DNA of 64,000 bases from Veillonellaceae bacterium (lineage in GTDB: Bacteria > Bacillota > Negativicutes > Veillonellales > Negativicoccaceae), in contig JALELM010000003.1 in the NCBI GenBank assembly GCA_022771805.1, positions 62,001 through 126,000 of the forward strand. The letters run 5' to 3'. A program made the translations under genes and the position numbers. How positions within the stretch are numbered: position 1 is the first letter of the stretch; every line of letters starts with the position of its first letter. Shown here piece by piece: positions 51,517 to 52,280 of this stretch. The notes under the pieces were generated by a model. The model was given only the letters and a program-made list of their open reading frames with translations, searched no databases and was not told where the DNA came from.

Positions 51517-51601
51517 TGGTGCCGGAGAAGGGACTCGAACCCCCACGCCACAAAGGCGCCGGATCCTAAATCCGGTGCGTCTGCCATTCCGCCACTCCGG
51601 C
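51517..51601 (-). tRNA. tRNA-Leu(TAG)
   Basis: 85 nt with encoded CCA and the long variable arm of class II tRNAs. Acceptor GCCGGAG/CTCCGGC, anticodon arm CCGGA-TTTAGGA-TCCGG (anticodon TAG, reads CTA), T-arm GGGGG-TTCGAGT-CCCTT. Confidence 0.97.
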
Positions 51602-51659: not shown

Positions 51660-51962
51660 AACAAAAAAGGCGAAGCGCGCTTCGTCTTTTGTTGTGTGAG
51701 ATTCGGTTCCCTGTCCGAATCTCCGACTATGTGTAGCCGGCGCCCCTTGCCGGGCTTGTCGGAAAAAGGTGCGGAATCATTTCCGCGGAGGATGATGCTA
51801 TCCTGACGACCGAGTCGTTATGTTAAAAAGGGGGAAGAGAATAATGTTCCCAAGCATTATCCTCTTCGAAAGGAGATGAACGTAGCCATCGGCTTGCGCC
51901 GACGCTACCGGGGCTTGCGCCCCTGAAGGATGATATGCAAAAGTTTTCCAAGAAAACTTATT
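51660..51962 (-). ncRNA. candidate structured noncoding RNA (eight consecutive hairpins)
   Basis: Complementary arms seen by eye: 51698-51706/51715-51723 (9 bp perfect); 51723-51727/51758-51762 enclosing AGCCGGC/GCCGGGCT; 51771-51776/51781-51786; 51789-51793/51800-51804; 51806-51810/51814-51818; 51834-51846/51855-51867 (13 bp, one mismatch); 51882-51886/51904-51908 enclosing 51889-51893/51898-51902; 51910-51914/51919-51923. Read on the minus strand, two loops become GCAA tetraloops and the array ends in an intrinsic terminator (51686-51663), favouring minus-strand transcription. It lies directly downstream of a cobalamin riboswitch. No ORF explains it. Identity unknown; plus-strand purine-rich linkers leave orientation open. 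Confidence 0.6.
51663..51694 (-). terminator. intrinsic terminator at the end of the structured RNA
   Basis: On the minus strand AACAAAAGACGAAGC pairs with GCTTCGCCTTTTTTGTT (one mismatch, GC-rich core 51669-51686), with T6 in the right arm. It lies just before the tRNA-Leu promoter. Confidence 0.8.
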
Positions 51963-51996
51963 GCCGTAATTGGAAGTTCATGACCGTCCATCAAAA

Positions 51997-52022
51997 AAAC
52001 TCTTTGCGAAGGCAAAGAGTTT
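51997..52022 (-). terminator. terminator of the cobalamin riboswitch expression platform
   Basis: Perfect 11-bp stem AAACTCTTTGC-CTTC-GCAAAGAGTTT followed by TTTTG on the minus strand, about 60 nt past the aptamer. Confidence 0.88.
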
Positions 52023-52079
52023 TGCGTACCATAATAAAGCACGTATTCTCCTCCCCATCGCTCGTGGGTCCAGTGGTGA

Positions 52080-52232
52080 ACGTTAAACAGGCAGTTCTCC
52101 TGACTTCGCATCATCGCTCATTCCGCCTTCCCGGTTTCCCAGTGGCTCCATGGAATTTGCTCCGCTTCACAGTGGCGGGACCGTGTCGGCTTTGCACCGA
52201 ACTTCCCTATTAAGCTTTGCAGCACCTGTTCC
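52080..52232 (-). promoter_or_regulatory. cobalamin (B12) riboswitch aptamer
   Basis: Minus-strand sequence carries all conserved blocks in order: AATAGGGAAGTTCGGTGCAA, CCGACACGGTCCCGCCACTGTGA, GAGCCACTGGGAA, GGGAAGGCGG, then the B12-box region GATGATGCGAAGTCAGGAGA followed by ACTGCCTG. Spacing suits the full-size aptamer. It has its own promoter upstream and terminator downstream, but the next 400 nt hold no convincing protein gene on this strand. Confidence 0.93.
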
Positions 52233-52251
52233 TCTCTATGAACTTGCCTAT

Positions 52252-52280
52252 ATATTAGCACATGTACCTATACCTGTCAA
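52252..52280 (-). promoter_or_regulatory. promoter of the cobalamin riboswitch transcript
   Basis: Minus strand TTGACA (52280-52275), 17-nt spacer, TAATAT (52257-52252), about 12 nt ahead of the expected riboswitch 5' end. Confidence 0.83.

Follow-up and report, generated by a model that had tools for sequence, protein, structure and literature searches.

The cobalamin riboswitch on the minus strand of the DNA analysed here almost certainly gates a noncoding RNA (ncRNA). This DNA, referred to below as the window, is a stretch of 64,000 nucleotides in contig C2 of a 1.44-Mb genome (G000). Taken as a whole, the locus is read as a B12-responsive, trans-acting RNA gene that would repress mutase operons at low B12, a reading for which a probability of roughly 0.55 is estimated.

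The comparison covered 61 genomes of the order and 380 Negativicutes genomes of the class. The window's own family (f1) includes G000 and the genomes G001-G003, of which G002 is Negativicoccus massiliensis (LT700188.1, a complete single-contig genome) and G001 is an uncultured Veillonellaceae MAG. The families f2, f3 and f4 are taken here to be Dialister and relatives, Megasphaera, and Veillonella, respectively.

Architecture of the riboswitch locus

The first-pass annotation of this region described a consensus promoter, a complete B12 aptamer and a terminator on the minus strand, followed by a dense hairpin array and with no target ORF before tRNA-Leu, and it placed the unit at 51987-52280. 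All of these elements were recovered and the location held; the extent did not, as the true unit is larger and continues to a final terminator near 51663, giving a total of about 585 nt. The main features of the locus are as follows.

52252..52280, minus strand: promoter TTGACA-N17-TAATAT of the riboswitch/ncRNA transcript, with 10/12 consensus matches
52073..52244, minus strand (read from 52244 to 52073): cobalamin riboswitch aptamer, RF00174 (Rfam search; 99.4 bits against a gathering score of 31.5, E 1.2e-23, full length 1-189)
52047..52070, minus strand: P13 hairpin CCCA-CGAGCGA-TGGG; the antiterminator strand GGGGAGGAGA begins with its 3' arm
about 52023-51993, minus strand: attenuator, an intrinsic terminator AAAACTCTTTGC-CTTC-GCAAAGAGTTTT (3' arm also written GCAAAGAGTTTTTTT) followed by a T run
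51663..51992, minus strand: conserved structured noncoding RNA arising from readthrough (fold z-score and comparative models, see below)
51517..51601, minus strand: tRNA-Leu(TAG), a separate neighbour outside the regulated unit, with its own promoter-like site at 51642-51613

G002, G003 and the f2 genomes likewise have a TTGACA-type promoter 5' of their first riboswitch, and equivalent terminators stand 3' of the riboswitches in f1, f2 and f4 genomes. According to the ORF list of the window, there is no credible protein gene between the riboswitch and tRNA-Leu(TAG). The nearest minus-strand ORFs (one of 42 aa with a TTG start and one of 69 aa overlapping the aptamer) have neither a ribosome-binding site nor a homologous frame in relatives beyond the conservation of the RNA itself. 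A conserved small ORF was also considered and rejected, since the cross-genus peptide matches track the conserved hairpin, the lengths are inconsistent, and the home family offers a TTG start without a ribosome-binding site. The hairpin array is real: the region 51995-51600 folds at -147 kcal/mol vs -113 kcal/mol in shuffled sequences (z = -6.2).

Expression platform and expected response to B12

All parts of an expression platform are found behind the window aptamer, namely P13/L13, an antiterminator overlapping P13 and a regulated terminator, and they show compensating changes. The 3' arm of P13, with which the antiterminator begins, pairs with the terminator's 5' arm; the same overlap with compensating changes recurs in relatives. 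In nearly all riboswitches examined, including the Veillonella and mutA leaders, the P13 3' arm and its flank can form this pairing, the two sides of which covary (GAAGGUG/CACCUU and GGGAAGGGGA/CUCUUUUCC, among others). P13 and the antiterminator are mutually exclusive. B12 stabilises the L5-L13 kissing contact and hence P13, and it should therefore favour termination.

Published behaviour of such elements points in the same direction. Kennedy et al. reported 38 functional cobalamin riboswitch reporters that were repressed on corrinoid addition, 37 of them with predicted terminators (PMC9600662). The V. parvula mutA riboswitch, which is related to the one in the window and has a terminator platform, is among these repressing reporters and was presented as a dose-response example (PMC9600662). 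From the mechanism of the platform together with the behaviour of this related riboswitch, the long RNA would therefore be expected at low B12. Thus, judging from its anatomy and from the published behaviour of a relative, the window riboswitch is very probably an OFF switch.

Several other cobalamin riboswitches occur in these genomes. The gene mutA, which encodes a B12-dependent methylmalonyl-CoA mutase, has its own riboswitch with an OFF-type terminator platform in G000 (G000:C6:39128-39301), G001 and one Veillonella-type genome, an odd arrangement for a B12-using enzyme. Two weaker riboswitches (35.8 and 37.8 bits) lie on contig C16 of G000 close to genes for cell-surface proteins, among them a TonB-receptor-like gene and genes for repetitive surface proteins.

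Distribution of the riboswitch and its noncoding RNA

In all four f1 genomes, the aptamer is followed by the same conserved structured RNA. A tRNA-Leu lies downstream in G000, G002 and G003 (3/4), and in G001 no tRNA is present in the 10 kb examined and the neighbouring genes are different, which indicates that the unit is independent of the tRNA. No tRNA was seen behind the f2 arrays either. The genes downstream vary: several g5 genomes have a glutathione-peroxidase-like gene, g6 and g7 have others, and f1 has the tRNA.

A covariance model (R1) was built from four sequences of the downstream RNA alone. When applied to the 61 genomes of the order, R1 matched f1 and seven f2 genomes (E 4e-6 to 6.5e-4), and an Rfam scan of the matched loci placed every match behind one or two cobalamin riboswitches. 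As R1 held no riboswitch sequence, the presence of a riboswitch upstream of the matches is an independent confirmation of the unit. Two genomes (G006 and G008) were missed by R1 under strict filters and recovered through their tandem riboswitches and through the refined model R3, which was based on 24 units; another model, R2, was dominated by sequence and left unused. A search of the 380 class genomes with R3 identified the ncRNA in 13, comprising the four f1 genomes and nine genomes of the sister family f2, each time behind one or two cobalamin riboswitches, and in none of the remaining 367. No curated Rfam family was found in the downstream region, the only Rfam matches being the cobalamin aptamer and, in the window, the tRNAs; the best other match, suhB/mmgR in G010, had an E-value of 0.25, below the cut-off, and was treated as chance.

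In most relatives (among them f2 genomes, G001 and G003), the same ncRNA stands behind two cobalamin riboswitches in tandem, both of which have a terminator; the window has a single riboswitch. The second tandem aptamer of G014 appears decayed, with fragments of the conserved core remaining on the minus strand at about 1400-1440 of the oriented locus sequence.

The Veillonella-type genomes (f4) have an orphan cobalamin riboswitch as well. Its position upstream of tRNA-Leu(TAG) in much of g12 and in three g13 genomes reproduces the synteny of the window. The RNA downstream has a different conserved core (UUGGUAUUAUCA ... GUGUUAAUAUA); UUCAUCAUCAUCC or UUUUCAUCAUCUCC usually stands a short way 5' of a terminator. 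The RNA of these related Veillonella thus differs from that of the window and ends in UUCAUCAUCUCC-like seeds.

Structure of the noncoding RNA

The ncRNA of the window consists of hairpins separated by CU-rich segments, and the following parts were distinguished.

51825..51908, minus strand: ncRNA core of models R1/R3 (hairpin GTAGC...GCTAC, linker and AGGGAA-type hairpin), 70.1 bits with R3
51868..51881, minus strand: unpaired linker GUUCAUCUCCUUUC, mimicking the 16S anti-SD tail UCACCUCCUUU and complementary to the CoA-transferase ribosome-binding sites
51834..51867, minus strand: hairpin 1, 13 bp, loop CUUGGGAA, with covariation support
51698..51723, minus strand: hairpin 2, 9 bp, loop ACAGGGAA
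51925..51936, minus strand: further CU-rich segment AUAUCAUCCUUC, seen in the sequence and also present in G001
51787..51798, minus strand: further CU-rich segment GCAUCAUCCUCC, seen in the sequence
51663..51684, minus strand: final ncRNA terminator CGAAGCGCGCTTCG-CCTTTTTT

Every array contains one to several hairpins with a loop of 8-9 nt that includes GGGAA, mostly as AGGGAA. Across the 13 arrays, GGGAA occurs 35 times, 27 of them in loops closed by stems of 8 bp or more, compared with a mean of 0.06 and a maximum of 1 in shuffled arrays. The loop is the most constant feature of all 13 arrays, and the stems vary by compensatory change. In a set of 12 hairpins from nine genomes, 8/9 stem pairs change on both sides around a constant loop, a result reached in 0/500 shuffles; as these hairpins were pre-chosen for having a stem, the evidence lies in the compensating changes and in the excess over shuffles. 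In a structure-fitted alignment, which leans towards structure, compensatory change was found in 20/20 pairs.

The linkers, too, show conservation, almost base for base within the home family. The most constant of the CU-rich segments are UUCAUCUCCUUU (f1) and UUCAUCUCCYUU (much of g5), and these segments resemble the 3' end of 16S rRNA (UCACCUCCUUU). In nearly all of 16 units, RNAalifold proposed a UCCY-GGGA pairing between the linker 5' of the AGGGAA hairpin and the loop, a possible pseudoknot or intermolecular contact. The loop side of this possible pairing is invariant, so that covariation is lacking, and a stem of 10-13 bp would have to be crossed.

Candidate target in the CoA-transferase/mutase operons

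The family genomes contain two B12-dependent acyl-CoA mutase operons, each headed by a succinyl-CoA:CoA-transferase-like gene (names read from sequence). In G000, the ribosome-binding sites of these CoA transferases, CAAAGGAGATGGAAAG-ATG and AAAAGGAGATGACAGT-ATG, complement the linker of the ncRNA. Each genome has just 8-10 copies of the 10-mer AAGGAGATGR and, the ncRNA itself aside, only two sites in G000 were accepted as the ribosome-binding site of a real gene, those of the two CoA transferases. They account for two of the three accepted sites in G001, and CoA transferase 1 is one of the few accepted in G002 and G003, together with adk and, in G003, thrC; it matches the 10-mer in all four f1 genomes. 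In the 1.44-Mb assembly, the succinate-propionate operon has a 694-aa mutase gene (G000:C18:14260-16110) that shows one in-frame TAA, and relatives have intact copies.

By raw duplex energy, CoA transferase 1 is 8th of 204 sampled start regions in G000 and 3rd of 173 in G002, the two G000 targets being only 8th and 9th. When SD strength is allowed for, CoA transferase 1 becomes 2nd of 204 and 2nd of 173, respectively, and CoA transferase 2 becomes 5th of 204 in G000. Complementarity of the unpaired seed to the CoA-transferase ribosome-binding sites exceeds the SD background in the home family and does not in f2. In the Negativicoccus linker CCAUCUCCUUG, a U-to-C change replaces a G-U pair with CoA transferase 1 (AAGGAGATGG) by a G-C pair; the fit to CoA transferase 2 is lost, the site of that gene having drifted. 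Scoring of full-length duplexes against start regions did not favour the CoA transferases and returned only GC-driven noise.

In f2, the three genomes without a CoA transferase also have no cobalamin riboswitch and no ncRNA, and a CoA transferase is present in 8/9 ncRNA genomes; G009, a fragmented genome, has the ncRNA and no CoA-transferase match. The CoA-transferase ribosome-binding site of f2 is GGGAGGATGATAGT, and the f2 linkers show no preference for this start region (rank 39-85 of 150). By eye, the first f2 hairpins complement GGGAGGATGATAGT through their 3' arms (e.g., AUCAUCCUCC in G010), but these arms are inside a stem. In addition, the ribosome-binding site AAAGGAGATGGT is kept in Veillonella, where the ncRNA differs, and SD conservation alone could therefore explain part of the match. 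Support for this target is thus strong within the home family, whereas the sister family f2 provides none. On the basis of complementarity, a direct action of the ncRNA on the mutase operons of the home family is possible, at slightly less than even odds.

Proposed mechanism and alternative explanations

From the anatomy, conservation, RNA structure and complementarity described above, pairing in vivo, repression and a physiological role are inferred as follows. With cobalamin bound, P13 would form and dock on the aptamer, leaving its 3' arm unavailable for the antiterminator, and transcription would stop at 51993 to give a short RNA of about 250 nt. When B12 is scarce, the P13 3' arm and its flank would instead pair with the terminator's 5' arm, letting RNA polymerase read through into an RNA of about 585 nt with AGGGAA-looped hairpins and CU-rich linkers. 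The linker UUCAUCUCCUUU could then pair with the ribosome-binding site of the succinyl-CoA:CoA-transferase genes heading the B12-dependent acyl-CoA mutase operons (succinate-to-propionate); with translation blocked, the enzymes would remain unmade when their cofactor is missing. Two observations sit poorly with this model: the AGGGAA loops, though conserved, have no role in linker pairing, and mutA, a B12-dependent gene under its own riboswitch, counts against it. A fuller version is held more tentatively still, in which a new Veillonellales ncRNA family behind one or two B12 riboswitches in series may be B12-sparing, silencing the mutase operons at low B12 via their ribosome-binding sites, with the AGGGAA hairpins recruiting an unknown protein or RNA partner.

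The main rival is that the RNA serves mainly in protein capture, its AGGGAA hairpins titrating an RNA-binding protein as CsrB does CsrA and its CU-rich linkers being spacers. The constancy of the loop in 13 arrays with compensating stems agrees with this, as does a copy number of one to several, such as known sponges have. However, no candidate protein was found, and the linkers, as described above, are conserved as well. A CsrA sponge in particular was rejected, because csrA, which encodes the known binder of GGA loops, is absent from 61/61 genomes of the order, with positive E. coli and B. subtilis controls. Protein capture as the main function is considered unlikely, at about the level of a minority view, and it may coexist with mRNA pairing. 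A sponge of the Rli55/EutX type for a resident ANTAR antiterminator is improbable. The riboswitch-ncRNA architecture is that of Rli55 (PMC8079631), and one REC-ANTAR protein above the Pfam cut-off, encoded beside a putative sensor-kinase gene, was found in 11/11 ncRNA genomes tested. Nevertheless, EutV requires A1-x-x-G4 hexaloops (PMC3369931, PMC8934654), and these are absent from 10/11 arrays; G000 has two single ones that do not form a short-linker pair, and the AGGGAA loops measure 8-9 nt. The canonical ANTAR sponge was accordingly rejected, since the hexaloops are missing despite the presence of the ANTAR protein. The suggestion of the first-pass annotation that the riboswitch controls an ncRNA as in Rli55/EutX thus survives for the architecture and fails for the hexaloop motif, and the working mechanism must differ from that of Rli55/EutX. 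The REC-ANTAR regulator and the putative sensor-kinase gene adjoin a tsaD-like gene in ncRNA genomes.

The remaining explanations are more remote. The short terminated riboswitch RNA could itself be the trans-acting product, as for Listeria SreA (PMC8079631), with readthrough incidental; this is highly improbable, as the sequence past the terminator is strongly conserved and structured, which incidental readthrough does not explain. Slightly less probable again is a leader coupling tRNA-Leu(TAG) expression to B12. A tRNA-Leu does follow in G000, G002, G003 and most Veillonella-type g12 genomes, but the tRNA has a promoter-like site of its own and is preceded by an intrinsic terminator, and G001 and the f2 loci have the RNA with no tRNA seen behind it, on which grounds a tRNA-Leu leader was rejected. 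Least probable of all is a relic, in which a B12-related protein gene was lost and the hairpins are debris. The missing ORF and the decayed-looking second aptamer of G014 would fit, but riboswitches without a gene occur in relatives of three families, and selection acts on the aptamer, the platform and the downstream RNA structure. The comparative data refute the decayed gene that the first-pass annotation had named as its alternative: relatives have no ORF at that place either and carry the same riboswitch and conserved structured RNA, and the lost-gene relic was rejected. Preference is given to the B12-responsive, trans-acting RNA gene.

Relation to known regulatory RNAs

RyhB is an iron-sparing sRNA of enterobacteria, and the logic proposed here would be similar: when the cofactor is scarce, the sRNA is on and the cofactor-using enzymes are off. 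RyhB differs in being controlled by Fur, vs a riboswitch here, and has no sequence relation to the window RNA. The LhrC family sRNAs of Listeria also have CU-rich single-stranded motifs between hairpins and pair with the ribosome-binding sites of several mRNAs, but they are not riboswitch-controlled, have another structure and have no AGGGAA loops. CsrB/RsmZ share hairpin arrays with GGA-containing loops, the difference being the absence of CsrA from the window's whole order.

B12 riboswitches that gate ncRNAs are already known, namely those of Rli55, EutX and AspocR (PMC8079631). Similar to Rli55/EutX, the window locus combines a terminator-type B12 riboswitch with an ncRNA of a few hundred nucleotides and no ORF; Rli55/EutX link B12-dependent catabolism to cofactor supply, as is proposed for the window. 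Unlike them, it has no dual A1-G4 hexaloops and no eut genes in the immediate surroundings, is unrelated by Rfam search, and carries 8-9 nt AGGGAA loops and anti-SD linkers. Listeria AspocR resembles the proposed system as a B12 riboswitch-gated RNA proposed to repress a B12-using pathway via base pairing, but it is a cis-encoded antisense to pocR, whereas the proposed targets of the window RNA lie on other contigs; no credible plus-strand gene was found across 51663-52245, where an overlap of the AspocR type would lie.

Significance

The type of control is known, but the ncRNA represents a new family of RNAs, new also in its architecture, and it is not in Rfam; a literature search of incomplete coverage found no published description of such an RNA in these bacteria. 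Riboswitches controlling ncRNAs are known from a handful of Listeria and Enterococcus cases. The present results add a family whose RNA is built differently and which occurs in common human-associated bacteria, namely Negativicoccus and the sister family, with an orphan counterpart in Veillonella. In Negativicoccus massiliensis, the riboswitch before the ncRNA is the sole cobalamin riboswitch found in the genome, and thus its one such sensor has no protein gene behind it. Moreover, these findings suggest a testable circuit in which the production of propionate, a major gut metabolite, would be tied to B12 supply.
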